Shown: in pieces, positions 637 through 13,638 of the stretch
Layout: the number at the start of each line of letters is the position of its first letter
How positions within the stretch are numbered: position 1 is the stretch's first letter
Source of the DNA: Gammaproteobacteria bacterium
GTDB taxonomy: Bacteria; Pseudomonadota; Gammaproteobacteria; Steroidobacterales; GCA-2729495
Assembly: GCA_023150055.1 (NCBI GenBank)
Contig: JAKLLP010000003.1
Location: 9,497 to 23,196, forward strand
Reading direction: 5' to 3'
DNA length: 13,700 bases
Notes under the pieces: generated by a model
Databases searched by the model: none
What the model was told of the DNA's origin: nothing
The model's input: only the letters and a program-made list of their open reading frames with translations
Position numbers and translations under genes: made by a program

Positions 637-981
637 TCATTCCTTTACGCATACCCAGTACCAACTACCGCCGATATATCGCCACTGCCAGACGCAGTCC
701 GCTTCGGCCGCACCATCGGTGGATACCTGCTCGACTTCAACGAGGACCGTTTCCTTCTTGATATTAGTGGGGTAGCAGGCAGGATCAGCTTTCTTGTTCC
801 CGCTGTTGAAGTCGCACTCCTGCTTCTTTTTGCCGAGACCATCGGACCAGTAGCGGCATCCCTTGTCGGAGTCGCACACCAGGGACCATTTCGGCTCATC
901 AGCGCGGACTGGCGCCGAGAACAGGATTCCCGGCAGGAGCGCGCCAAGCAGGGCAGCGATCAGGGCGGTTTTCGATTTCAT
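637..981 (-). CDS. small secreted six-cysteine protein of unknown function
   Basis: A 114-residue protein that I do not recognise. It opens MKSKTALIAALLGALLPG and has a clear Sec signal peptide with likely cleavage after residue 27 (PVRA, then DEPKW). The mature part of about 87 residues has six cysteines, at about 36, 42, 56, 69, 96 and 111, enough for three disulfides in the periplasm or outside the cell. It is rich in Lys, Asp and Trp and ends with an aromatic run, WQWRYIGGSWYWVCVKE. The frame is open upstream to 1032, but the ATG at 981 is preceded by a strong purine-rich Shine-Dalgarno (GAGGGGAGGGAAG, 985-997) and yields the signal peptide, so it is preferred. The gene is poorer in GC than its neighbours: the row 781-840 has 29 G/C of 60. 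It lies 89 nt downstream of the FecR-TPR-barrel gene and could be co-transcribed with it. Confidence 0.72.
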   Translation of the reverse strand: MKSKTALIAALLGALLPGILFSAPVRADEPKWSLVCDSDKGCRYWSDGLGKKKQECDFNSGNKKADPACYPTNIKKETVLVEVEQVSTDGAAEADCVWQWRYIGGSWYWVCVKE

Positions 982-1070
982 GGACTTCCCTCCCCTCTTC
1001 GGGTGTTGGTGGATCGACACGTTCGTCGGCACCGGATCGTGTTGTTCTGCCTCCCGGCGCCGACAGGCGT

Positions 1071-4000
1071 TCAGTAAGCGATGGTTGCCCGCAGCAGAAT
1101 TGTCCGCTCAGGGAAAATGCGCGGATTCTGCGGATCAACGTCCTGGAACTGGATCGACCTGTCGAACAGGTTCTGAGCTTCGATTCGTATCACGCCGTGC
1201 CGGCCTGGCAGCCGGAAGGCCGCGAAGGCATCCGCAACCCAGAAATCGTCGGAGTCGCGTTCGGTCGGGGCGAACGGGAAGACCTGGAAGTCGCCGCGCT
1301 GCCAGACGCCGGTGGCCACCACCCCGGCGGAAAAACCGGAAGGATGGAAGTAACTGGCCTCCAGCGGCAACCGGTGGGTCTCCAGCGTGAGATAGCCAAA
1401 CGGGAAGAAATTGGCATCGTTCTCGAACAGGTCGTACTCGTACGACGCGCCGGCGCTGATTCGATCCGAGGCAAGCCAGTACAGATAGCCGCGGGCCTGG
1501 CTCTCGGTGACGTCGGTCGTGACGGTACGCAAGCTCACATCGGGCGGCGGCGTCTGCTCGAAAAACGGGATATCCAGCCAGCGCCTGGAGATCTCCAGGC
1601 CCGCCTGCAGTTCGCCCGAAAGGCGATGGTCGATACCCAGACCGAGGCGCCGGGCCTCTTCCGCCTCGGATCCAGCGAAGAACTGGTTGAATCCCGCGAC
1701 CGGTGTCGGCTCCAGTGAAGGTTGAATGTCGAGACGCGATGGGTTCGGACGTTGCAGCGTCTGGAAGGCGGCCAGCCGCACGGTGGTGTCCGTCGTCGGC
1801 TGCCAGACCACACCAAGCTTCGGGTTGAAGCGATCACGCTCGAAGTTGCGTCCCTCCAGCAGGTCGATGCTCGCGCCGGCAGTCAGCACGACGTTGGCCG
1901 GAAGCGCGAAATTCGCATAGGCATAGCCGCTGATGTCCTGCGGGCGGAAACCGTCACTGCCCTGGACGGGGATTTCAAATGGCGGATCCGGAATGGGTAT
2001 GAGCAGCGTCGTATTCTCATCGACCGTGGAGCCGTAGTAGCGAACCCCGCTCGTCAGGCTCCAGTTCACCGCCCGATGGAGCACCTGCAGTTCCGCCGTG
2101 TAGTTATCCACATCCTGCGCGATTCGGAACGAACCGACACTGGAGAAGTTGGCAAGCGAAACGTCTTCGTAGGCGATGAGCGCCAGCCCGGTGGTCGACG
2201 GACTGAAATCATGGCGCAAGCCTATGCGTACCGTGGCCGAATCGTCGCTGGCGCGCCCGGTAGACGGAAAGGGCGGTTCCTTCGCGCGCAGAACGAGGTC
2301 ACCTTCTTCGCGGTCAGTGGCCCGAACCTCCGCGAGGACGCTGGTGTCTGCCGACAGACGACGCTGTACGAGAAGACTACCGACGCTCTGTTCGAGGTCG
2401 TTGTTTTCACGGAATCCGTCTGTCTCGAAGTGGTATCCACCCAGACTGGCCGACCAGGGACCGTCGATGCCGGCCACCACCGCGTCTGCGCCCCATGTGT
2501 CGTTTCCGCCGACGACGGCGGAACTCTGGATCGCGAGACGATCGCGATTGAACAGCGGGTTGAACTCATTGAAGGAGATGGCAGTGGGGCCAGCCGTATC
2601 CAGTATGAACAGGTTCGCCTCGCCCAACTGAGGCTGCACTGGAGTGATGTTCAAGGGTTGCAGAAGCTGGGACTGCAGCAACTCGTTCACCCGCGCGATC
2701 TCGTGCCGTGGCAGGCTGGAATAGGAATCCGCCAGCAGGCGGTGGCCCGAGAAGTCGGACGGATCCGTCGCCACCGATTTCCAGCCCTTGCGCAATGCCA
2801 GCTCGTCGAAACTCAGATCGCGGTAAGTCCGCCCGACGGCGGCGCTGCGCGCCGCGAGGTCTTCGTCGAGCAGCAGGCGCGAGCGGTACACCGCGCGGTT
2901 GTCGTTGAGCGCGACGGACTCCGTCATGTCCTCGAGAGCCTCGACCGGACGGTTGACGGTCTGCTTGCGGATCGCGTCGTAAAAGAACGCGGTGGGGTCG
3001 TTCGGGTCGAGCTCCTTGGCGATGCCGAGCTGGGTCGCGGCCAGTTCGTCACGCTTCTCCTCGTAATACGCCTTGCCGATGTAGGCGCGGATCAGCGCGT
3101 TGCCCGGGTCGAGGATCACCGCGATGTCGATCTGCTCGCGCCCTGCCGTGAGCTCGCCGTCGCGGATCAGGGCGAGCCCGAGCCCGAGCCGCGGCAGCGG
3201 CGCGGCCGAATCGAGCCGGATCGCCTCGGTGAACGAGGCGCGCGCGAGCGCGGTGTCCACGCGCGCGAGGTACGCGAACCCGAGCACGGCATGCGGCAGC
3301 GACAGCGCCGGATCGGCGGCGACCGCGTCCCGGGCGGCGTCGATCGCCTGCCGCGTGTCGCCGACGGCGAGCCAGAGCTCCGCGAGACGCGCGGCGGCCA
3401 GTACGTTGCCCGGCTCGGCGGCGGTCGCCGCCTGCAGGGACTGCAGCGCGCCGCCGAGATCGAAATCGGACCGCTGCACGTAGGAGCGGGCGATCAGGGC
3501 GGCGGCGGAGGCCGGATCCGCCGCGACCGCCTGCCCGGCGAGGCTGCGCGCCCGCTCGCGATCGTTCTGGGTGAGGGCCATGATCGAGCGCAGCGCGAGC
3601 GCGACGGCATCGGTGGAGTTCTTACGCAGGGCCGCGTCGAGAAGCCGCTCGGCATCATCAAACCGCCCCACGGCGAGCGCGGCCGCGGCCCGGCCTGCCT
3701 CGTCGGAGGCGCCGGCGGTCACCGGCGGGTAGTACAGCGTCCATTGCACCGCATCGCGCGGCCGCACGACCGTCGCGAGGACGGGTGCGGCGCCCGCGCC
3801 TGCGCTCACCCTCGTGCCGCTGCCTGCCGAGGCGCGGCCGCTCGCGTTCTCCATGGTGACCTGGCCCTCGAAAACGAGTATCGAGGCGTCGCCGGCCGAC
3901 ACGGTCACGAGGAATTCGGTGCCGTCGATACCCGCGTTGGCAAACGGGGTGAGCACGCGCAGTGCCCGCCGGTCGCGGGTGACGATGTGCAGCGCTCCTT

Positions 4001-4361
4001 CGAGCACTTCCAGCCAGGTCTTTTTCTCGTCCGCGGGCGGCGGGAAGTGAATGACCGTGTTCTGGTCGAGACGGGTGACGGTCTCGTCGGGCAGCGCGAG
4101 CGCTGCACGGCTGGCGGCCCGCGTCCTCAGCCGGTCGCCGAAACACAGGCGCTCATCGAGCGCTGCCGGGGCCCACACGGGCTGACCGCTGCGCTGGGTC
4201 TCGACGGTTCCCTGCAGCGATACCAGGCGCGCTACCGGCGGCTCGCAGCTCGCCGCCGCGGCCTCGACAGCCGCGAACAGGCCATACGCCATCAGTACGG
4301 CCCGGGCGCAGCGCGTCACGGGCGATTTGCCGACACCGACGCCGGCTGCAGACTCGTTCAC
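1071..4361 (-). CDS. exported FecR-TPR-outer-membrane beta-barrel fusion protein
   Basis: About 1,096 residues. Order: signal peptide (1-37, ending AAAA before SC); FecR-like periplasmic domain (about 42-195, with VARLVSLQGTVE, FGDRLRTRAASRAALALPD and TPFANAGIDGTEFLV); tetratricopeptide repeats (about 220-500, several 34-residue units such as LLDAALRKNSTDAVALALRS); a linker; then a beta-barrel (about 595-1096) resembling the C-terminal barrel of TonB-dependent receptors, with FNPKLGVVWQP, an IEAQNLFDR motif and a terminal aromatic (TIAY). No receptor plug domain or TonB box is visible, so it is not an ordinary receptor; TPR plus barrel recalls exporters such as BcsC and PgaA, though those lack FecR. 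I chose the GTG at 4361, which follows a purine-rich stretch at suitable distance. An in-frame GTG at 4415 has its GGAG immediately adjacent, too close. It lies downstream of the cyclase gene, suggesting the two work together across the envelope. Domain calls are firm; function is inferred. Confidence 0.85.
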   Translation of the reverse strand: MNESAAGVGVGKSPVTRCARAVLMAYGLFAAVEAAAASCEPPVARLVSLQGTVETQRSGQPVWAPAALDERLCFGDRLRTRAASRAALALPDETVTRLDQNTVIHFPPPADEKKTWLEVLEGALHIVTRDRRALRVLTPFANAGIDGTEFLVTVSAGDASILVFEGQVTMENASGRASAGSGTRVSAGAGAAPVLATVVRPRDAVQWTLYYPPVTAGASDEAGRAAAALAVGRFDDAERLLDAALRKNSTDAVALALRSIMALTQNDRERARSLAGQAVAADPASAAALIARSYVQRSDFDLGGALQSLQAATAAEPGNVLAAARLAELWLAVGDTRQAIDAARDAVAADPALSLPHAVLGFAYLARVDTALARASFTEAIRLDSAAPLPRLGLGLALIRDGELTAGREQIDIAVILDPGNALIRAYIGKAYYEEKRDELAATQLGIAKELDPNDPTAFFYDAIRKQTVNRPVEALEDMTESVALNDNRAVYRSRLLLDEDLAARSAAVGRTYRDLSFDELALRKGWKSVATDPSDFSGHRLLADSYSSLPRHEIARVNELLQSQLLQPLNITPVQPQLGEANLFILDTAGPTAISFNEFNPLFNRDRLAIQSSAVVGGNDTWGADAVVAGIDGPWSASLGGYHFETDGFRENNDLEQSVGSLLVQRRLSADTSVLAEVRATDREEGDLVLRAKEPPFPSTGRASDDSATVRIGLRHDFSPSTTGLALIAYEDVSLANFSSVGSFRIAQDVDNYTAELQVLHRAVNWSLTSGVRYYGSTVDENTTLLIPIPDPPFEIPVQGSDGFRPQDISGYAYANFALPANVVLTAGASIDLLEGRNFERDRFNPKLGVVWQPTTDTTVRLAAFQTLQRPNPSRLDIQPSLEPTPVAGFNQFFAGSEAEEARRLGLGIDHRLSGELQAGLEISRRWLDIPFFEQTPPPDVSLRTVTTDVTESQARGYLYWLASDRISAGASYEYDLFENDANFFPFGYLTLETHRLPLEASYFHPSGFSAGVVATGVWQRGDFQVFPFAPTERDSDDFWVADAFAAFRLPGRHGVIRIEAQNLFDRSIQFQDVDPQNPRIFPERTILLRATIAY

Positions 4362-4558
4362 GGGCAGCCCCCCCACCCCTCTCCGGCGAGACCTCGGGAC
4401 GCTGGCCCGGCGCACCTCCCCCCGGTTCCGATTGGAGCGCGCCGACCTGCCCGCGATCCCAGAATATTTCGTTTTCTTCTCAGGATGTTGGCTCGAAAAT
4501 CGAGGCTAGCACCACGGACACGCCGCGGCAAGCGCGGCCCCCCTTCGGCATTATCAAT
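4362..4558 (-). other. 197-nt leader between cyclase and FecR-TPR-barrel genes
   Basis: No gene is supported here. On the minus strand the stretch holds a small perfect hairpin (4492-4504, arms CTCGA and TCGAG around AAA) without a U-tract. It also holds an AT-rich island at 4462-4480 (complement of AGAATATTTCGTTTTCTTCT) that could contain a weak promoter -10. A G-rich purine tract at about 4367-4384 precedes the chosen GTG start of the fusion gene. The length allows either co-transcription with the cyclase or a separate promoter; the sequence does not decide. Confidence 0.35.
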
Positions 4559-6805
4559 CTACTTGGCCTGGATACGCACCGCGCCGCCGGTGAACGACAC
4601 GGGTCCGTTTGCGAGGTAGTCCTCGCACAGCCGCAGGTAGTAGCGCGCGGGCCCGTCATCGGCAACGCGCTCCAGGTACCGGGCAAACAGCTGCCGGGCT
4701 TCGCCCCAGCGCCCGGCGCGAAACTCCGCCAGCGCCGCGCTGAACAACTGGACGTTCCGCGCTGCGGTGCCGAGCGGCTGCTCCGCCTGACCGAGCAGCT
4801 CGTGCACCACCACCGGCACCGTCTTGCCGGCCAGCAGGAAGGTCCCGACCTCGCGCGTCGCCAGTCCGCCGACACCGGCGAGCGCTTCTGCCGACACCAG
4901 GATTCGTGTGCCGAGCTGCTTGTTGAGCGACTCGATGCGCGTTGCCGTGTTGACGATGTCGCCGACGGCCCGGTACTCGAAATGCTGGCGCGCGCCGATC
5001 TCGCCCAGCCGGATTTCTCCGGAATGCAGGCCGATACGTGTCGGCAGGGCCGCCCGATCGCCGGCCAGGGCACGCGCCTGCAGTTCGGCCGCCAGGTGCA
5101 ACGCCGCGTCGCAGGCGTTTCTTTGCACGGTAGCTTCCGGACGGGCGGAGGCCCATATCGCCATCATCGCGTCACCCACCACGTCCGAGACCTGCCCGCC
5201 GAAGCGCTCGACCTCGGTGAAGAGCAGTTCGTAATAGGCGTTCATGAGGCGCGTCAGCTCGTCCGGCGCCAGCGTTTCGGCCATCAGCGTGTACTGGGCC
5301 GCATCGGTGGCCATGCAGGTGCCGTGCACGATCTCCACCGCAGCCGCGCTGGCCCGGCTCTCGTCGACGAGCCGCTCCACCAGCCGCGGCGGCACGTAGC
5401 GGCCCAGGGCGGCGCTGATACGTGCACGCTGCCGCCGGGCCTCGCGGAACTGCAGGACGAGCGCGCCGACCGTCGCCAGCGTGGTCTGCAGGAACACGGG
5501 CACCATCACGGGCATCCAGAGGTCCGCTGCGGAAAACAGGCCAACCGCGAACACCAGGTAGAGCGAGGCGCTCGCGATGCCGGCGGCGACACCGACCGCT
5601 CCCGGCAGCGCCCGGCAGACGAAGCCGAGGTAAGCGCCCCAGGCGAACAGGACCGCCAGCGCCGGCAACGGCCCCAGCGGGCGCAACGGGCGGCCCTCGA
5701 GCAGGTTGGCGGTGGCCGTCGCCGCGATCTCCACGCCGCTCAGGTTGAGCCCGCTCTCCTCGGAGAACACCGAGAAGAAACTGTCCTTCTGGTCGGCCTG
5801 ACGGCGCGCGGCAAAACCGACGAACACGATGCTGTCGCGCAGGTCGAGCGGGCGGCCTTCGACCGTGCGCAACGGCTCGCCGCTCACCGCCTCGTGATAG
5901 GGAATCGTCGGCACGCTGAGCGGCGGACCATAGTAGTTCAGGTAATAGCTCGACGGCCCGGCGTAAAGGCGCAGCAGGCCGGCGAGCCGCAGCGCCGGCG
6001 CCTCGGGCAAAAACACCGCGGGGCCCGCGTCGATCGCTTGCGCAAGCGCCTCGACCCTGGCCGGCTCGGCAAGACAGAGTTCACGCAGCGCCTGCATGAA
6101 ATCCGTCAGTGTGCGCGCCTCGACCGCCGCCACGCCTCTGTCCGGAATCCCGGCCGTGCGGACAGCCCCCGTCAATTCGTCGCGCAAGCCCGCCGCATAG
6201 GCCTGCAGCGCGACCATCGGCAACGTCGGATACTCTCCGGCTTCCTCGTTGAAGGCCCAGAACTGGCTCACCTTCATCGGCCACGCCGGCAGCAGGAACG
6301 GCGCAGTGGCGAACGCGCTCGCGCTCAGCACCTCGATGGGTGGCGCAAGCTCCACGCGAACTGCCTCCAGCGCCCGGTTCCCCGCGCCCGCGCGCCCGAG
6401 GGGCACGTAGCGCCGCTCGAGGCGCATCGTCAGCACCACGTTACCCGCCGCGCGCAGGGCTGCTGCGAAGGCCGCGTCATCATCGGGCGACCCCGGCTCA
6501 CCGAAAAAAATGTCGAGGACTATGACGCGCGCGCCTGCCGCGGCGAGGTTTTCCACGAGCTTCGCATGCAGGGAACGCGGCCAGCGCGCCGGGTCCGCCG
6601 GCACGCCGAGCGCCTCGGCAGAAGGGCGATCGATCCGGACCACGTGAACATTGCCCGGCGGCTGGCGCGGCCCGCGCAGCGCGAACAGCCAGTGCAGGCC
6701 GGCGCTTTCCTCGACCCGCAGGGTGAAAGGAACCATGCCGACGGCAACGCCGATTGCGCCGATGGCCAGCCCGAGCAAGGCGGCGCTTGTCCTACGGCCC
6801 AGCAT
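4559..6805 (-). CDS. CHASE2-domain class III adenylate/guanylate cyclase
   Basis: A 748-residue membrane cyclase that would make a cyclic nucleotide from ATP or GTP. Layout: TM helix 8-28; periplasmic CHASE2 sensor about 35-370 (VHVVRID, ARVIVLDIFFGEP, LRDSIVFVGFAA); three TM helices about 378-397, 401-425 and 430-453; cytoplasmic class III catalytic domain about 488-640; a C-terminal TPR-like helical tail (FSAALAEFRAGRWGEARQLF). Metal-binding Asp501 (MATDAAQYT) and Asp545 (VVGDAMMAIW) are present, as are transition-state Asn619 and Arg623 (VNTATR). The two purine-selecting positions are unusual: Asp541 where Lys is standard, and Arg612 where Asp or Thr is standard. Substrate specificity therefore cannot be read off. 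The ATG at 6805 opens the frame; its Shine-Dalgarno is weak. It lies 107 nt downstream of a Crp/Fnr regulator with a cyclic-nucleotide-type pocket and upstream of the FecR fusion, an arrangement that suggests a sensor-messenger-effector set. Confidence 0.92.
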   Translation of the reverse strand: MLGRRTSAALLGLAIGAIGVAVGMVPFTLRVEESAGLHWLFALRGPRQPPGNVHVVRIDRPSAEALGVPADPARWPRSLHAKLVENLAAAGARVIVLDIFFGEPGSPDDDAAFAAALRAAGNVVLTMRLERRYVPLGRAGAGNRALEAVRVELAPPIEVLSASAFATAPFLLPAWPMKVSQFWAFNEEAGEYPTLPMVALQAYAAGLRDELTGAVRTAGIPDRGVAAVEARTLTDFMQALRELCLAEPARVEALAQAIDAGPAVFLPEAPALRLAGLLRLYAGPSSYYLNYYGPPLSVPTIPYHEAVSGEPLRTVEGRPLDLRDSIVFVGFAARRQADQKDSFFSVFSEESGLNLSGVEIAATATANLLEGRPLRPLGPLPALAVLFAWGAYLGFVCRALPGAVGVAAGIASASLYLVFAVGLFSAADLWMPVMVPVFLQTTLATVGALVLQFREARRQRARISAALGRYVPPRLVERLVDESRASAAAVEIVHGTCMATDAAQYTLMAETLAPDELTRLMNAYYELLFTEVERFGGQVSDVVGDAMMAIWASARPEATVQRNACDAALHLAAELQARALAGDRAALPTRIGLHSGEIRLGEIGARQHFEYRAVGDIVNTATRIESLNKQLGTRILVSAEALAGVGGLATREVGTFLLAGKTVPVVVHELLGQAEQPLGTAARNVQLFSAALAEFRAGRWGEARQLFARYLERVADDGPARYYLRLCEDYLANGPVSFTGGAVRIQAK

Positions 6806-6841
6806 GGGAAATTGCCGAAGGGCGACTCCGCGTGATGCAAC

Positions 6842-6892
6842 CGTCGCCAGAATACTGTATTTCCGCCGGACCGCCCGCCGGCGCTGGCGACG
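6842..6892. repeat. 9-bp inverted repeat between Crp/Fnr and cyclase genes
   Basis: CGTCGCCAG (6842-6850) and CTGGCGACG (6884-6892) are exact reverse complements separated by 33 nt. The gap contains an 11-bp AT-rich palindrome, AATACTGTATT (6851-6861), and two copies of CCGCCGG. In RNA read on the minus strand this could fold into a hairpin just before the cyclase gene, perhaps limiting read-through. Alternatively, the AT-rich core could supply a promoter -10 for the cyclase. No U-tract follows, so it is not a standard terminator. Confidence 0.35.
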
Positions 6893-6912
6893 CGCGGAGC
6901 GACCGGGAACCG

Positions 6913-7623
6913 CTACCTCGGGTCGCCGTTACGCGCGGGCCTGTGCTTCGCGAGATCGGCCAGGGCTTCGGGGTCACGGATGACGACCTTGCCGCGCGAC
7001 AGTTCGATCCAGCCTTGCTCGCGCCAGCCCTGCAGGTTCTGGTTGACCACCTGGCGCGACGCGCTCAGGAAGTTCGCGAGATCGCCCTGCGATATGTTCA
7101 ATACCTTGCCGCCAGGGGCCTTCGTACCGTGCTGGTTGCACAGCCGCAGCAGGCGGCTTGCGAGCCGCGCAGGCACGTCGAGGAAAGCCGCCTCCTCCAC
7201 CAGCTCGCTCGCCCAGCGCAGCCGCTGGCAGAACACCTGCAGCAGGTGCCGGGCCAGCGCGGGATCGCGCTCCAGCAGGTGGAGCAACTCCACCCGGGTG
7301 ACGAGAAACAGGCTCGTGTCGCTGGTCGCGATCGCGGTGGCCGTCCGCGGCCCGCCATCCAGCATTGCAACCTCGCCGAAGACATCCCCCGATTCCATGA
7401 TGTTGAGGAACACCTCGCGACCGGAGGGTTCCTGCGAGCTGATGCGGACCTCGCCCGAGATGACCGCATACAGCGCATCACCGGCATCGCCCTGGCGGAA
7501 GATGACGGTTCCCCGCGGGTAGCTGCGGCGCAGAGCGAGCTCGGCCACCCGGTCGAGCGTGCTCTCGGCGAGCCCGCGCAGCAGCAGGTTCGCCCTCAGG
7601 ACCGCTTTCGCCGTGATCGCCAC
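6913..7623 (-). CDS. Crp/Fnr-family transcriptional regulator
   Basis: A 236-residue regulator, full length for the family. The N-terminal cyclic-nucleotide-binding fold (about 10-130) has a cassette FGEVAMLDGGPRTATA at 82-97. Glu84, Arg93 and Thr94 stand where Crp and protein kinase A bind the sugar and phosphate of cAMP, so a cyclic nucleotide ligand is plausible. There is no N-terminal cysteine cluster as in Fnr. A long dimerisation helix follows, then a winged helix-turn-helix (about 175-215, ISQGDLANFLSASRQVVNQNL) with recognition residues Arg190, Gln191 and Gln195 where E. coli Crp has Arg, Glu and Arg. The frame is open back to 7854 and has an ATG at 7686, but the GTG at 7623 is preceded by AGGAGGAGG at 7628-7636 and yields a normal family length. 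It is the first gene of the left-hand minus-strand series. It could respond to the neighbouring cyclase and may regulate itself through the palindrome at 7681-7696. Confidence 0.92.
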   Translation of the reverse strand: MAITAKAVLRANLLLRGLAESTLDRVAELALRRSYPRGTVIFRQGDAGDALYAVISGEVRISSQEPSGREVFLNIMESGDVFGEVAMLDGGPRTATAIATSDTSLFLVTRVELLHLLERDPALARHLLQVFCQRLRWASELVEEAAFLDVPARLASRLLRLCNQHGTKAPGGKVLNISQGDLANFLSASRQVVNQNLQGWREQGWIELSRGKVVIRDPEALADLAKHRPARNGDPR

Positions 7624-7680: not shown

Positions 7681-7696
7681 TGTCATCCAGGTGACA
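7681..7696. promoter_or_regulatory. candidate Crp/Fnr-type operator (TGTCA-N6-TGACA)
   Basis: TGTCATCCAGGTGACA is a perfect 5-bp inverted repeat around a 6-bp centre, the same spacing as the Crp site TGTGA-N6-TCACA. The fourth base of each half-site differs from Crp. CO sensor CooA, also of this family, uses a TGTC-type half-site. The palindrome lies 57 bp before the regulator's GTG and just downstream of a possible -35 (complement of 7721-7726), so binding here could repress or tune the regulator gene. This is inferred from geometry and position; I noticed no second copy in the other intergenic stretches. Confidence 0.5.
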
Positions 7697-8252: not shown

Positions 8253-9686
8253 CTACCCGCTGATCGCCGCAGGAACCCCCGTCTGCGCGAGCAGGGCCTT
8301 CCTGCGGAAAAACCGCAGCAGGCCGGCCTCGCCATGGCGTGAACCGCCGCAGCCGGAGAGCCCGAAGGAATTCTTCTCCGCCTCGTAGGTCTCGCGGGTG
8401 AGCCCGGCGTCGTTGAGGCTCATGCCGCCGGCATCGATGCGCTCGGCGACGGCGCGCGCTTCCGCCAGCGTTGCGGCGAAAACGGCGCCGGACAGGCCGT
8501 ACACCGTGTCGTTGGCGAGTGCGACCGCTTCCTCCGTCGTGGCGAAGGGCATGACCGGCATGATCGGCCCGAAGGTCTCCTCGGTCATGAGCTTCATGCG
8601 GTGGTCGACGTGGGTGACCACGGTGGCCGGAACATAGCGTCCGCCGCCCAGTACCCGGCTCTTGCCGCCACAGCGGATCACGGCGCCGCGGGCGACGGCA
8701 TCGTCGAGGTGCTCGTCGATGATGTCGGCCTGCCGGTCGAAGATGATCGGCCCGATCTCGCCGTCGTCGATGTCCGGGTAATTGAAGCGCGTGCGCTCGG
8801 CCTTGCGGACCAGCAGGTCGACGAAACGGTCGTGAATGGCTGCGTCCACGTAGACCCGCTCGAGCGCGAGGCACACCTGCCCGCTCGCCACGGCCGACAC
8901 GCGCAGGATCGCATCCGTAGCCCTGTCGATGTCCGCGGAGGCGAGCACGATCGCCGGATCCTTGCCGCCGAGCTCGAGGAAGGCGGGGATGAAGTGTTCG
9001 GCGGCCGCCACCGCCACCTTGCGGCCCGTGGCCACGCTGCCGGTGAAGCAGATCGCGTCGACCGCCGCCACGAGCCGTGCCCCCGTAGCGCGATCGCCTG
9101 CCACCACGTCGAACACGCGCGCGAGTTCCGGCACGGCGCCGATCGCCGCGCGCAGGGGCGGCACGAAGCGCGGCGTCACCTCGCTCGGCTTGACGATGAC
9201 GGCGCAGCCGGCGAGCAGCGCCGGCACGGTGTCGATCAGCGAGAGCGCGAGCGGAAAGTTCCACGGGCTGATGACGCCCACGAGCGGGTAAGGCACGAGC
9301 TGGTGCCCGATCTGCAGCGTGGGCATCGCCTGCGACTGAAACTCCGCAGTGCTGATGATGGCCGGAGCGCGCTCGCACCAGCGGCGCAGGTTGCGCACCA
9401 CGGACAGGAGTTCGCCCATGGCGATCTTCGTTCGCCCGGTATCCACGGCGAGCGCGGCGACGATGTCATCCCGCCTGGCCTCGAGCACGTCCGCGAAGCG
9501 GCGCAGGGTGGCGCAGCGGGAATCGACACCTGCATCGCGCCAGGCCGGCTGGGCGAGGCGCAGCTCACGGCAACGCGCGTCCAGCTCGCTCGCCGCTGGC
9601 GGCGTGAACTCGTAGTCGATCTGGCCCGTGCGCGGATTACGTACCTGCATGACACTCGGTGACTGGCACCATGCGTTCGACACCAT
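8253..9686 (-). CDS. NAD(P)-dependent aldehyde dehydrogenase
   Basis: A 477-residue aldehyde dehydrogenase superfamily enzyme that would oxidise an aldehyde to its acid in the cytoplasm. The usual landmarks appear in order: ISPWNFPL with Asn143; KPSEVTP with Lys166 for cofactor binding; FTGSVATG (214-221); FLELGGKDP with general base Glu238; SGQVCLALERVYV with catalytic Cys272; and EETFGPIMPV (369-378) contacting the nicotinamide ribose. The C-terminus (NSFGLSGCGGSRHGEAGLLRFF) is also typical. No signal peptide is seen. The ATG at 9686 lies 4 nt after the stop of the dehydratase-family gene, which suggests translational coupling. Met13 (ATG at 9650) is an alternative start; neither has a strong Shine-Dalgarno. 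Substrate is not readable from sequence. By context it might process a semialdehyde linked to a 4-hydroxybutyrate-like route, but that is inference. Confidence 0.93.
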   Translation of the reverse strand: MVSNAWCQSPSVMQVRNPRTGQIDYEFTPPAASELDARCRELRLAQPAWRDAGVDSRCATLRRFADVLEARRDDIVAALAVDTGRTKIAMGELLSVVRNLRRWCERAPAIISTAEFQSQAMPTLQIGHQLVPYPLVGVISPWNFPLALSLIDTVPALLAGCAVIVKPSEVTPRFVPPLRAAIGAVPELARVFDVVAGDRATGARLVAAVDAICFTGSVATGRKVAVAAAEHFIPAFLELGGKDPAIVLASADIDRATDAILRVSAVASGQVCLALERVYVDAAIHDRFVDLLVRKAERTRFNYPDIDDGEIGPIIFDRQADIIDEHLDDAVARGAVIRCGGKSRVLGGGRYVPATVVTHVDHRMKLMTEETFGPIMPVMPFATTEEAVALANDTVYGLSGAVFAATLAEARAVAERIDAGGMSLNDAGLTRETYEAEKNSFGLSGCGGSRHGEAGLLRFFRRKALLAQTGVPAAISG

Positions 9687-9690
9687 TCAT

Positions 9691-11244
9691 TCAAACCGGC
9701 CGGAACACCCGGGCCATGTACTGCGCCTCGTCGTCGGCCGGTTCCTCGGCCGACTCCGGCGCGATGCCGGCGAGCGCCCTCGCCAGTGACTTCTTGAACT
9801 CGACCTCCATGGCGCGCTGGATCTGGATGCGCTGGGCCTGTGGCGAGCCGGCTCCGTGCAGCGACTCGGTCAGGTAGCCCACCGCGTTGCGGCCGAGCGT
9901 CATGTTCTCGATCAGGCGCAGGATGCGCAGGCGGTCCTCGGTGGGGATGTCGGCCCGGCCCTTGAGATACTTGCGGATGAGCTCACCCACCTCGGGGCTC
10001 GCGAGATCCTGTTCCGAGGGCAGCGTCACCATCAGCCCGCCGGCTAGGTCCTGGGCGAGGCGGCCGATCTCGTAGGGCAGCTTCGTCACGTGGTGCTTGC
10101 AGACGTTGGAGAGCATCTCGTCGGAGAGGTAGACGCCGGAGGGCATCGCCGTCGCCTGGTAGCTCGCCGCCACGCCGGTGCCGTAGATCGTCTCGTTGAG
10201 GTGTGTCATCTCGACGAGCTTGTCGCGGATGTGAGAGGCCTTCTCGATGCCGTTGTAGTCCGCGATCGTCGCGGCCGCGCCGATCAGCACGTCACCGACG
10301 CCGGTCTTGCACACGTAGCTGCGGCGGTGATAGCAGGTAAAGCGCTCCACCAGCGGGGCCGCGAACTCGACCTCGCCGTCCATGAACACGTGCTCGGCCG
10401 GGACGAACACGTCGTCGAAGATGATCATCGCCTCCTGGCCGGAGAACTTCTGGTTGCCGCTGTCGAGTTCGCCCTCCATGGCGCGGGTATCGCAGCTCTG
10501 CCGGCCATAGATGTAGGTGATCCCGGGCGCCTCGACCGGCAACGCGGCGACCACGGCATAGTCGCGGTCGGCCGGGCCGAGCCGCATGGTCGGCATCACC
10601 AGCAGCCAGTGCGAGTTGATGCAGCCGGTCTGGTGCGCCTTCGCCCCGCGCAGCCATATCCCGGCCGCGTCGCGCCGGCTGATGTGCACGAACAGGTCCG
10701 GGTCGGCCTGCTCATGCGGCGCCTTGCTGCGGTCGCCTTTCACGTCGGTCATGGCCCCGCCGATGACGTAGTTCTGTCGCTGGGCAAACGCGATGAAGTC
10801 CCGGAAGCGGCGGTGATAGTCGGTCCCCTGCGCCTGGTCGATGTCGAAGGTCACCGAGTGCAGCGCGTTGAAGGCGTCCATGCCGACGCAGCGCTGGAAG
10901 CAGGTGCCGGTGAGCTGGCCGAGCCGGCGCTGCATCTTGTTCTGCATCACCAGGTCCTCGGGCGAAGTCGCCACGTGCAGGAAGCGGTTCACCGCCTCTC
11001 CCGTGTAAGGCGACGCTGCGGTCGCCAGTTCAGGGTTGCGCAGCGCGAGATCGTAAGTCTCGGCGACCGCGTTGATCGAGGGGCGGATGATCGGGTGATC
11101 CACGGGCTCCTCGACCCGCTCGCCGAAGAGATACACCTTGAGGTTGCGGCCACGAAGCGACTCGATGTACTCCGCGCCGCTGCGGAGCGGCTTGCCAGCT
11201 TGCCTGCCCTGCCCTGCGGCGAGCTTGTCTGCACGCGCTGCCAT
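9691..11244 (-). CDS. 4-hydroxybutyryl-CoA dehydratase / vinylacetyl-CoA isomerase family protein (HpaB superfamily)
   Basis: A 517-residue protein close along its whole length to clostridial AbfD, which dehydrates 4-hydroxybutyryl-CoA to crotonyl-CoA using FAD and a [4Fe-4S] cluster. Candidate cluster ligands are Cys115 and Cys119 (GTCFQRCVGMDA), His306 and Cys312 (YHRRSYVCKTGVGD). Catalytic counterparts are present: Thr206 (AKAHQTG), Glu271 (SGQEAMIIFDDVF), Tyr310, Lys313 and Glu460 (TESLHGAGSPQAQR). One oddity: the His-to-Cys loop is one residue shorter than in the AbfD sequence I recall (HRQSYGGCK against HRRSYVCK). About 20 extra N-terminal residues and a 24-residue acidic tail are present. 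Start: ATG at 11244 with AGAGG at 11254-11258. An intrinsic terminator lies upstream, so this gene and the coupled aldehyde dehydrogenase may be a separate unit. AbfD is oxygen-sensitive, so the enzyme may work in low oxygen or on another substrate. Confidence 0.85.
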   Translation of the reverse strand: MAARADKLAAGQGRQAGKPLRSGAEYIESLRGRNLKVYLFGERVEEPVDHPIIRPSINAVAETYDLALRNPELATAASPYTGEAVNRFLHVATSPEDLVMQNKMQRRLGQLTGTCFQRCVGMDAFNALHSVTFDIDQAQGTDYHRRFRDFIAFAQRQNYVIGGAMTDVKGDRSKAPHEQADPDLFVHISRRDAAGIWLRGAKAHQTGCINSHWLLVMPTMRLGPADRDYAVVAALPVEAPGITYIYGRQSCDTRAMEGELDSGNQKFSGQEAMIIFDDVFVPAEHVFMDGEVEFAAPLVERFTCYHRRSYVCKTGVGDVLIGAAATIADYNGIEKASHIRDKLVEMTHLNETIYGTGVAASYQATAMPSGVYLSDEMLSNVCKHHVTKLPYEIGRLAQDLAGGLMVTLPSEQDLASPEVGELIRKYLKGRADIPTEDRLRILRLIENMTLGRNAVGYLTESLHGAGSPQAQRIQIQRAMEVEFKKSLARALAGIAPESAEEPADDEAQYMARVFRPV

Positions 11245-11322: not shown

Positions 11323-12734
11323 CCCATCCGCTCCATGACCGCGAGCGCCTCGCGCTCGGCCGATTCCATCGCACCTTCGATGCCCTGTTGCAGCACTGCG
11401 ACATGCTCGCCGATCCAGTGCACCGGGCCCCAGGGTTCGCGGGCCAGCCGGCCGGACTGGCGCACCTGGCCCGGGGCCCAGAAGTGATAGGCGCCGAGGG
11501 CGTAGGGGTTCTGGCCCCAGGCGGTCACATCGAGCACTTCGAGGTTGCCCGCCGCGGCCGGCCGCGCGCTGCTCAGCTCACGCACCACGAAGCGGCCGAT
11601 ACGGTCGTTCGTCCAGTCATCGAGCTTCGCCGCTTGCTGCCCGTCGATCCAGCAATTGAGTTCGTTCAGCGAACCGTCTTCGGCCGGCACGGCAAACACT
11701 TTCTCGAAGGGCCGGTCAGAGATCATCGCCGGCGGCAGTCCATCGTCCTCCCAGAAGCGGCGCCGGAAAGCGAGCTTCACCTGGGTGATCTTGTTGTAGG
11801 GCAGGTCGCGGATGATCTCCGCCTGCGGCGGGCGCGGCAGCAGGATCACCTGGCGCAGCACCGACCATGGAATGGAGCAGAGTGCAAAGCGCGCGCGGTA
11901 GCGCTGCCCGTCGGCGCAGCGGACTTCGACGCCGTCGCGATCGATCTCGATGCGGGCCACCGCCTGGCGCAGGTGCACCTCCCGGTCGAGACGCCCGGCC
12001 ATGGTCTCGGGCAGGCGCGCGCTGCCGCCACGGATCCGGAAGAGTTCGCCGCCCCCGGCACGCGCCACCAGGCGCTTGCGATAGGCAAACAGCGCGGAAA
12101 CATTGTCGAGGCCGCGGCCGTCGTAGAGGATCTCCATCAAGCGCAGCGCCTCGGCCGAGGCGCCGAGGCGTTCGAGCTCGACGCGCAGCGAGCGCGCATC
12201 GAGCGCGGCGAATTCCCCGCGCAGCCAGTCGTCGTGGCCCCTCAGGGGAGAACCGCGGTCGAGATGGAAATCCGCGAGCCGCTGCGGCAGCACGTCGCGC
12301 TCCGCTCCGGCGAGGCGGTTCGCGCGCGAACTGCTCCACGCGGCGGCATCCAGCAGCTCGCCGTTGACGTGCAGCGCGACACCCGGCGCGAACGCGCGGC
12401 GCGGGAAGGCACCGAGGCCGAGATCGGCGAGCGCGGCGAAGGTCCGCGCATAGAGCGCATCGAGCGTCTGGCCGCCGGCCTCCGGCGCTCCGCGCAGGTG
12501 GTCGAGCGTGAGGAGCCGCCCGCCGAGCCGATCGCTCGCCTCGATCACCAGCGGCTGGAGGCCCTGCTGCTGCAGGAGCCAGGCCGCATACAGCCCGGAG
12601 ATACCCGCGCCGATGACGAGCACCTCGGCCTGCTCCGGTGCGCGCGCACAACGCGCGAGCAACGGCACGGCCGCCGCTGCCGCCACCGAGCGCGCGAACG
12701 CGCGGCGCGACAGCCCCTTACGGAGTGAGGTCAC
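11307..12734 (-). CDS. FAD-dependent amine oxidase family protein with Tat-type signal
   Basis: A 475-residue flavin amine oxidase (monoamine oxidase/phytoene desaturase-like fold). The N-terminus MTSLRKGLSRRAFARS plus a hydrophobic Ala-rich run has twin-arginine form (SRRAFA), suggesting folded export with FAD. A cysteine at residue 29 (LLARC) is not a proper lipobox because Arg precedes it. The dinucleotide-binding fingerprint is VLVIGAGISGLYAAW (38-52), with Glu65 for ribose and DRLGGRL after it. The C-terminal FAD segment reads WIGEHVAVLQQGIEGAMESAE. Such enzymes oxidise amines to imines and aldehydes, or oxidise other C-N or C-C bonds; the substrate is unknown. The start is a GTG at 12734, overlapping the SUMF1-like gene by 17 nt, which implies translational coupling. 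An intrinsic terminator covers its end. If the product is an aldehyde, the downstream aldehyde dehydrogenase could use it, but the two would sit in different compartments. Confidence 0.85.
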   Translation of the reverse strand: MTSLRKGLSRRAFARSVAAAAAVPLLARCARAPEQAEVLVIGAGISGLYAAWLLQQQGLQPLVIEASDRLGGRLLTLDHLRGAPEAGGQTLDALYARTFAALADLGLGAFPRRAFAPGVALHVNGELLDAAAWSSSRANRLAGAERDVLPQRLADFHLDRGSPLRGHDDWLRGEFAALDARSLRVELERLGASAEALRLMEILYDGRGLDNVSALFAYRKRLVARAGGGELFRIRGGSARLPETMAGRLDREVHLRQAVARIEIDRDGVEVRCADGQRYRARFALCSIPWSVLRQVILLPRPPQAEIIRDLPYNKITQVKLAFRRRFWEDDGLPPAMISDRPFEKVFAVPAEDGSLNELNCWIDGQQAAKLDDWTNDRIGRFVVRELSSARPAAAGNLEVLDVTAWGQNPYALGAYHFWAPGQVRQSGRLAREPWGPVHWIGEHVAVLQQGIEGAMESAEREALAVMERMGALRR

Positions 12735-13638
12735 GCGCCACCCGGAAGCCGAAGAAAGAAAACAAGGTCGTTTCCGGATCGCGTCCGCGAAAACTCACGC
12801 GTTGCCGGTCCGGCCGCGTGATCCAGCTGCCGCCACGCACCGTGCGCCGCGCGCAGGGGCCGTCCGCCTCGACCGCGCTGCCGTCGACGGGCTGCGCCGG
12901 GTAGGGCGCGCGGTAACAATCCGCCGTCCACTCCCAGACGTTGCCGATCATGTCGTACAAGCCGAACGCATTCGGCCGGAACGATCCGACGGGTGCGGCC
13001 CGGGCGAAGCCGTCGTCACAGTCGAATGCCGCCCAGCCGAAACCGTTGCCGGCCACCCCCGCGCGGTCGTAGACGTTCGCATACTCGCAAGCGCTCGCCA
13101 TGTCGTCCGCGCCCCCGATACCACTCCAGAAAAATCCGCCGCTCGTCCCGGCACGCGCCGCGAACTCCCATTCGGCTTCCGTCGGCAACCGGTAGGGCGC
13201 GCCGGTGCGCTGGGCGAGCCAGCCGACGTAAGCCCGGGCATCGACCCAGGACACGCAGGTCACCGGTTCATCGTCGAAGGGCAGGCGTCCGTAACCCGGG
13301 TCTACCCAGCTCGCGCCGAGCGGTGTGGCCCACCCGTCCTTCCAGACCTGGCAGCCGCCGCGCATGGCGTAGCCGGTGTCCGCGACGAACGCGGCGAACT
13401 GCGCCTGCGTCACCTCGTGCCTGCCGAGAGCGAAGGCGTAGCCGATCCGCACCTCGCGCACGGGCCCCTCCGGACGGCCGGGCTCCCCGCCCTCGCCGCC
13501 CATGCGGAATTTCCCCGGCGCAATCACCATCATCGCGGGACAGGTCGGGCAATCGCGAAACTCCGCACCGGCGCGCGGACTCCTGCCGGCACAGGCACCG
13601 AGCGCCACGCAAAACAGCAAGAGCGCCAGGCGCCGCAT
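12718..13638 (-). CDS. SUMF1/FGE-like lipoprotein without formylglycine-generating cysteines
   Basis: A 306-residue protein of the formylglycine-generating-enzyme (FGE-sulfatase) fold. It starts MRRLALLLFCVALGACAG, a lipoprotein signal with lipobox LGAC and lipidated Cys16, so it should be anchored in the periplasm. Fold motifs run in order: HEVTQAQFAAF (74-84), PVTCVSWVDARAYVGWL (125-141), RLPTEAEWEFAARAG (150-164), VGSFRPNAFGLYDMIGNVWEWT (217-238), RTVRGGSW (265-272) and FGFRVARD (297-304). True FGE has two copper-binding cysteines just after the GGS motif; here the segment is GGSWITRPDRQRVSFRGR, with none. It is therefore probably not a sulfatase activator; PvdO-type relatives act otherwise in periplasmic maturation. 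Its ATG directly follows the stop of the upstream gene, and its end overlaps the amine oxidase by 17 nt. A role in maturing or supporting these exported oxidoreductases is inference. Confidence 0.88.
   Translation of the reverse strand: MRRLALLLFCVALGACAGRSPRAGAEFRDCPTCPAMMVIAPGKFRMGGEGGEPGRPEGPVREVRIGYAFALGRHEVTQAQFAAFVADTGYAMRGGCQVWKDGWATPLGASWVDPGYGRLPFDDEPVTCVSWVDARAYVGWLAQRTGAPYRLPTEAEWEFAARAGTSGGFFWSGIGGADDMASACEYANVYDRAGVAGNGFGWAAFDCDDGFARAAPVGSFRPNAFGLYDMIGNVWEWTADCYRAPYPAQPVDGSAVEADGPCARRTVRGGSWITRPDRQRVSFRGRDPETTLFSFFGFRVARDLTP

Follow-up and report, generated by a model that had tools for sequence, protein, structure and literature searches.

A 13,700-nucleotide (nt) stretch of a gammaproteobacterial genome (assembly GCA_023150055.1, contig JAKLLP010000003.1, positions 9,497–23,196; hereafter the window, with positions counted from its first letter) carries three consecutive genes, for a Crp/Fnr regulator, a membrane CHASE2 class III nucleotide cyclase and an exported FecR–TPR–barrel protein. 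We consider it probable that this trio is a trans-envelope receptor module of the type of Sinorhizobium meliloti NsrA, in which the barrel protein would act on the CHASE2 cyclase and the cyclase, in this lineage, on the Crp-like protein, and whose cyclase has an unusual nucleotide pocket. An earlier note on this DNA had described the three genes as consecutive on one strand, and open reading frames (ORFs) and domain matches confirm this. The crp gene (6913–7623, minus strand; 236 amino acids (aa)) starts with GTG and has AGGAGG just upstream; its product matches cNMP_binding (8.4e-27) and HTH_Crp_2 (1.3e-17). After a gap of 107 nt comes the cyclase gene (4559–6805, minus strand; 748 aa; CHASE2 3.4e-29, Guanylate_cyc 3.3e-12) and, 143 nt further on, the gene for the NsrA-like FecR–TPR–barrel protein (1071–4415, minus strand; 1114 aa; FecR 6.9e-16, several TPR families, TonB_dep_Rec_b-barrel 2.4e-09).

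The last of these proteins is laid out as a FecR domain (residues 94–186), TPRs (~240–510), a strongly conserved stretch to ~600 and the barrel (~610–1114), with Cys57 and Cys91 conserved. A Pfam barrel family scored above threshold in the window protein and two of seven relatives scanned, the other five giving a sub-threshold match or none, and no TonB-receptor plug family was found in the window protein or these seven. A terminal Phe or Tyr is present in 31 of 50 full-length relatives; we assign the barrel on the strength of the Pfam matches, this terminal residue and homology to NsrA. A search of the source genome, which is fragmented (2.65 Mb in 517 contigs) and 73 percent complete, turned up two matches at the level of the TPRs and no further copy of the protein.

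In the mechanism that we propose, the barrel would lie in the outer membrane and meet an outside signal, which the periplasmic FecR and TPR part would relay across the periplasm to the CHASE2 domain of the inner-membrane cyclase. The cytoplasmic class III domain would then make a cyclic nucleotide, for which the neighbouring Crp-like protein of Gammaproteobacteria is the likely receptor; this protein may in turn control its own operon via an upstream palindrome.

Conservation of the cyclase–barrel pair and its Sinorhizobium precedent

Scanning one genome per species with an alignment of 25 cyclases (A1, window included) gave 343 cyclase relatives, of which the best 80 were analysed as loci; with the window these make 81 loci, whose ORFs were clustered into families, and group labels of the 80 were taken from record titles. 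The earlier note had made its proposal hang on the three genes not being rare neighbours elsewhere, and for the cyclase and barrel genes they are not: a FecR–TPR–barrel gene lies directly downstream of the cyclase, on the same strand and within 1 kb, in 66 of the 80 loci. This adjacency is far beyond chance and spans delta/Desulfobacterota (17/18), Nitrospirota (6/6), Beta (12/16), Rokubacteria (1/1) and gamma/Proteobacteria (30/39) labels. Counting ORFs anywhere in the stretch, the only non-cyclase families present in more than 6 of the 81 loci were the FecR–TPR–barrel proteins (71/81) and Crp (36/81, the window's own Crp being uncounted as an overlapping frame was picked there). Among the 14 loci that have no directly downstream barrel gene, four contigs end less than 420 nt from the cyclase (L041, L065, L096 and L104), four have the gene elsewhere (upstream in L052, at 2.3 kb in L061, divergent in L067 and at 5.6 kb in L076), and L106 has, on the opposite strand 862 nt from the cyclase, a barrel-part ORF that is truncated where the contig stops.

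A class-wide contrast set, whose places were chosen irrespective of their neighbours, came from 274 genomes of the class, 83 of them with a cyclase match at 1e-30 and at most three candidates scored per genome. We analysed 80 of its 98 places (omitting the window, two places that were the second piece of a gene, and the 15 with the weakest matches) and sorted them by the two base-selecting residues of the cyclase, Asp541 and Arg612 in the window: 27 were Asp/Arg, 50 Lys/Thr, 2 Arg/Arg and 1 cut. A FecR–TPR gene is next to 22 of the 27 Asp/Arg cyclases (one being a contig-cut piece, L005), a Crp within 1 kb of 18, and both accompany 15. For the 50 Lys/Thr CHASE2 cyclases the corresponding numbers are 0 for an adjacent barrel gene, 1 for Crp and 0 for both. 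The Asp/Arg group also stands apart by score (at least 777 bits, 652 for the cut gene, versus at most 371 bits for Lys/Thr), under a model that was built from Asp/Arg members. The idea that Lys/Thr cyclases have FecR-only partners was rejected, as 5 of the 50 have some FecR-like match within 3 kb and none has a long barrel protein. Two CHASE2-query cyclases of the class (L129 and L138) have Arg at both base-selecting positions, and in L129 a 622-aa Crp-like ORF lies 24 nt upstream of the cyclase.

At two Nitrosomonas loci (L080:7376-14788 and L105:10418-17830) two tandem FecR–TPR–barrel genes follow one cyclase, perhaps as two receptors for one enzyme. At L070:10429-12890, L177 and L079:2418-4452 the FecR–TPR part and the barrel part occupy separate successive ORFs, which may be real gene splits or sequencing frameshifts.

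The earlier note knew of no described system of such make-up; one exists, the NsrA–CyaK–Clr pathway of S. meliloti (PMC7529298, PMC10463352). The outer-membrane barrel protein NsrA and CyaK are both reported to be required for the signal there (PMC7529298), with perception by CyaK requiring NsrA (PMC10463352). NsrA is placed upstream of CHASE2 adenylate/guanylate cyclases and Clr, and the CHASE2 cyclases, three in S. meliloti, are reported to make cyclic AMP (cAMP; PMC13001267). Perception with CyaK and with CyaD1/D2 needs NsrA, and Clr is the receptor (PMC7529298, PMC13001267, PMC10463352, PMC5498481); the S. meliloti papers put the NsrA barrel at residues 600–1200.

We found a single CHASE2 match on pSymB (NC_003078), in a cyclase gene whose 5' end overlaps the 3' end of a long FecR–TPR–barrel ORF (1200 codons from the first Met). 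This ORF is homologous to the window family over most of its length (profile E 1.9e-42; hhalign 99.9 percent, E 2.5e-31, 952 columns), whose profile sees its barrel where Pfam itself reported none, and the six best of 51 family members share 23–27 percent blastp identity with it over 475–605 aa. The two pSymB ORFs are very likely nsrA and cyaK, because their size, place and CHASE2 content agree with this assignment, as do the number of CHASE2 cyclases in S. meliloti and the SMb tag of CyaK, a tag that we take to denote pSymB. That CyaK is a CHASE2 cyclase so tagged is stated in PMC5498481. The same paper gives consecutive tags to clr (SMc02175), cyaD1 (SMc02176) and a FecR protein (SMc02177), a run that repeats the Crp, CHASE2 cyclase and FecR trio of the window. 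By analogy we infer the same signal flow as in S. meliloti, with the FecR–TPR part touching CHASE2 and Crp as the effector. The earlier suggestion that the barrel or FecR part signals to CHASE2 thereby gains a homologous example for the barrel step, NsrA to CyaK, and stays conjectural as regards a FecR–CHASE2 contact.

We also looked for co-evolution between CHASE2 and the FecR–TPR part. A first, unbalanced partial correlation was positive, but under an equal-column control the bootstrap differences fell near zero and the claim was dropped.

The Crp-like neighbour

In 32 of the 80 loci, mostly Gamma, a Crp gene lies no more than 1 kb from the cyclase. Counting only loci whose flanks both extend for 1 kb or more, it is there in 24 of 32 gamma/Proteobacteria-labelled loci and in 2 of 27 of the other labelled groups. 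Its orientation varies (upstream and divergent in 22, upstream on the same strand in 6, downstream in 4), and the adjacent Crps fall into at least two subgroups, those of the window and L037 sharing 30 percent identity. The earlier proposal that the cyclase product feeds the Crp is in this way less well backed than the step from barrel to cyclase.

The window Crp matches Clr (7pza) at 7.1e-32 and has the phosphate-binding residues Gly83, Glu84, Arg93 and Thr94; their Gly, Glu, Arg and Ser/Thr pattern is kept in all 33 partner Crps, window included. Ala138–Ser139 occupy the position of Thr127–Ser128 of E. coli CRP, of which the Thr reads the base (140 in Clr), and the recognition helix is SRQVVN. 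In our alignments the CRPs of C. glutamicum and M. tuberculosis, which respond to cAMP, also have Thr at the base-reading position. The same is reported for E. coli CRP and Clr (PMC10127613). We considered loss of this Thr as a co-adaptation to a new nucleotide and rejected it: 20 of 20 relatives that do not lie beside such a cyclase, found with the L037 Crp as query on different contigs or in different genomes, have no Thr either. As the loss is common to relatives elsewhere, it is uninformative on the nucleotide.

A perfect palindrome, TGTCA-N6-TGACA (7681–7696), 57 nt upstream of the crp start, is a candidate operator for self-control. The 2.65 Mb genome holds three copies: a second lies ~100 nt ahead of a crp-family paralogue whose product also has an SRQVVN helix, and the third (contig 299) has no crp gene seen nearby. 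L033, the nearest relative of the window, has the palindrome at the corresponding position with a single mismatch, within a stretch that is well conserved overall. Within the class, 85 of 114 genomes contain the motif, so it is unspecific by itself; we chose it for its position before crp, and just two sites count as independent support, those of the paralogue and of L033. Around the three genes, relatives showed scattered matches to CRP, FNR and Clr boxes and no shared site.

The cyclase pocket and competing readings

CHASE2 occupies residues 29–390 of the window cyclase. Assigning roles by comparison with class III numbering, Asp501 and Asp545 bind metal, Asn619 and Arg623 stabilize the transition state, and Asp541 and Arg612 select the base. 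This assignment was also compared with PMC4215837 and PMC4886424. The protein has the two metal Asp and the transition-state Asn and Arg of a class III nucleotide cyclase; Asp501, Asp545 and Arg623 are kept in 81/81 and Asn619 in 78/81. The pair Asp541/Arg612 is present in 25 of 25 A1 members, window included, and is the usual one among the 81: the first position, four before Asp545, is Asp in 68, Asn in 6, Glu in 3, Gly in 2, Ala in 1, Gln in 1 and Lys in 0, and the second is Arg in 73, a count biased by one of the two search patterns having contained that residue (the contrast set is free of this bias). The 15 outliers include Glu/Arg, Asp/Gly and Glu/Asn. Delta-labelled members L098, L061, L083 and L086, with Glu/Arg, Glu/Asn, Glu/Gln and Asp/Gly pairs, offer natural variants for substrate tests.

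The canonical adenylate cyclase pair (Lys with Asp, Thr or Ser) is thus absent from the window, as is the Glu that guanylate cyclases have at the lysine position, where the window has Asp. These residues suggest that the pocket is not an ordinary ATP pocket, and a pocket that has no ATP-type lysine is what is new relative to the S. meliloti line. In guanylate cyclases, Glu is reported to replace Lys, with a varied second position (PMC4215837); for Bacteroidetes relatives, a GTP pocket formed with Glu and Lys/Arg has been proposed (PMC4886424); a Glu contacts N1 and N2 of guanine in a cyclic GMP (cGMP) receptor (PMC3770947); and Cya2 is a CHASE2 guanylate cyclase with Glu at the lysine position (PMC5995499, PMC4886424). 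Guanine is on these grounds a reasonable guess, although Asp/Arg is not among the pairs named in the accessible text of these papers. We therefore propose a guanine pocket and a cGMP product tentatively, at slightly less than an even chance.

With somewhat less confidence still, the product could be cAMP, made by an adenylate cyclase whose base-contacting charges are swapped (Asp for Lys, Arg for Thr/Asp), in a cAMP system like NsrA–CyaK–Clr. Arg might serve as donor to N1 of adenine, with Asp as acceptor from N6; the S. meliloti CHASE2 cyclases are reported to make cAMP (PMC13001267); and a Mycobacterium cyclase with Lys/Asp retains some guanylate cyclase activity, so that the base is not determined by this pair by itself (PMC4215837). 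Such a swap sits badly with a first position that is Asp or Glu in 71 of the 81 and never Lys, with Glu/Arg, Asp/Gly and Glu/Asn among the outliers, and with the published guanylate cyclases that have Glu there (PMC4215837) and the reading of Glu with Lys/Arg as a GTP pocket (PMC4886424). It concerns the product only and is compatible with the trans-envelope receptor. The product may also be another cyclic nucleotide. A Pycsar system was considered and rejected: PycC models match the window cyclase (1.3e-20), but match two Lys-bearing CHASE2 cyclases better (4.2e-26 and 1.1e-28), and the sole match of the TIR-effector models is the window Crp (1.7e-12), where a DNA-binding domain stands in place of TIR.

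Several results weigh against the NsrA-type module. No barrel gene is present in the available DNA at 5 of the 80 loci (L057, L063, L078, L081 and L091; this DNA is limited to 191 nt upstream at L057 and 2.8 kb downstream at L078), and 5 of the 27 Asp/Arg cyclases of the contrast set have no FecR match (L155, L158, L169, L175 and L027). CHASE2 and FecR–TPR showed no particular link in the co-evolution test once lengths were balanced. Crp is missing beside most beta, delta and Nitrospirota loci, and the base-reading Thr is absent from 32 of the 33 partner Crps, the window having Ala. In S. meliloti the FecR-only SMc02177 is reported to be dispensable for signal perception (PMC5498481), which speaks for the protein with the barrel as the receptor and against FecR by itself in that role; and the pSymB cyclase pair is Lys/Ser, unlike the Asp/Arg of the window, which makes the precedent a cAMP system. 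In a rival reading only the barrel protein and the cyclase would form a unit, the nucleotide acting via another receptor and Crp being a neighbour with its own input. That reading, which we think unlikely, gains from the lower count of adjacent Crps (32/80 versus 66/80 for the barrel gene), from their near confinement to gamma/Proteobacteria-labelled loci, from their spread over different subgroups without the usual Thr, and from Clr, which by its tag lies with cyaD1 and away from the pSymB pair (PMC5498481). Against it, Crps of two dissimilar subgroups lie next to one cyclase family, which suggests that they were recruited repeatedly, and the adjacency persists while the orientation varies.

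The barrel could also be an export pore whose traffic the cyclase controls, so that information runs outward. TPR plus barrel recalls PgaA, and the NCBIfam PgaA model does find the window protein (22.7 bits) and its S. meliloti counterpart (32.2 bits); both scores are far under the cut-off of 366.65, no family apart from Crp accompanies the pair in more than 6 of the 81 loci, and signal perception needs NsrA (PMC7529298), all of which makes a pore very improbable. Hardly tenable is classical FecI–FecR–FecA cell-surface signalling with an extracytoplasmic function sigma factor, which a FecR domain with a TonB-receptor-like barrel brings to mind. No sigma factor family was found among the nine window proteins scanned (unlinked sigma factors were not searched for), no third family was present in over 6 of the 81 loci (where small clusters were not all annotated), and FecR is fused here to TPR and barrel.

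Taking the NsrA-type module together with the guanine pocket, the Asp/Arg CHASE2 cyclases might be receptor guanylate cyclases that make up a large family so far unrecognised, with barrel sensing, a FecR–TPR arm, a cGMP product and, in Gammaproteobacteria, a neighbouring Crp with operon feedback; this whole we would sooner doubt than assert. If true, cGMP signalling across the envelope would be common in Gammaproteobacteria, Betaproteobacteria, Desulfobacterota and Nitrospirota. For a family whose pocket agrees with neither textbook pattern, ATP or GTP makes a sharp and cheap test.

Surrounding genes and related systems

All nine scanned genes of the window are on the minus strand. Upstream of crp are genes for an HpaB-type hydroxylase and an aldehyde dehydrogenase (8253–11244), the latter 629 nt from crp; L033 shares both (700–5338), its HpaB-holding open frame having 963 codons. 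Beyond them, in gene order, come a flavin amine oxidase and a formylglycine-enzyme-like protein (12718–13638; best NCBIfam match pyoverdine enzyme PvdO, 197.6 bits, cut-off 500). On the other side, a small Cys-rich secreted ORF (637–981) follows the barrel gene after 89 nt, just as the earlier note had it. It has no Pfam match and no credible relative in the loci compared (best E 0.078), and was rejected as a fourth module part; it is probably outside the conserved unit. A cut ORF with a Tat-like (twin-arginine) signal (3–533) also has no Pfam match, and L033 has a similar start ~2.4 kb downstream of its barrel gene. Between 400 and 8400 we found 0 promoter-like sites (shuffles 0.3) and 5 terminator-like sites, which is chance level (shuffles 4.4); the window has no Rfam match. 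The same genome encodes a second CHASE2 protein (L002, contig 138), which has no class III cyclase match.

No publication on the Asp/Arg cyclase–barrel family was found by title or abstract, in a search whose coverage took in little of the subscription literature. CHASE2 domains are described as widespread sensors with ligands not known (PMC5192318); a dedicated barrel partner suggests that many of them read an outer-membrane protein, perhaps with no small ligand at all. Several known systems share parts of the arrangement. A Campylobacterota CHASE2 adenylate cyclase cluster, suggested by its authors from the clustering to be one pathway, encodes FecR and TPR by different genes and also contains a phosphodiesterase (PMC9239204). 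The Burkholderia BiofilmReg operon encodes a periplasmic FecR protein beside a CHASE2 sensor, but there CHASE2 belongs to a histidine kinase accompanied by a response regulator, its FecR is joined to LysM, and the accessible text mentions no barrel (PMC5192318). Synechocystis Cya2 is likewise a membrane class III cyclase with CHASE2 in which an acidic residue takes the place of the lysine, and is a guanylyl cyclase (PMC5995499, PMC4886424; PDB 2w01). Its pair is Glu/Gly, unlike that of the window. It is not known to have a barrel partner. In Rhodospirillum centenum, a cyclic nucleotide acts on the CRP homologue CgrA, which raises its own expression and that of cyclase subunits; cGMP is shown there, and CHASE2 or a barrel receptor goes unmentioned in the accessible text (PMC4681086).

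NsrA–CyaK–Clr differs from the window in gene order, the pSymB barrel gene coming before the cyclase, and in having its Crp encoded at another place. It is alike in that an exported FecR–TPR–barrel protein (~1,200 aa) is encoded beside a class III cyclase with CHASE2 and that the pathway includes a receptor of the Crp family, so that what had been a single S. meliloti pathway would become a broad class of outer-membrane receptor and cyclase modules in environmental lineages.

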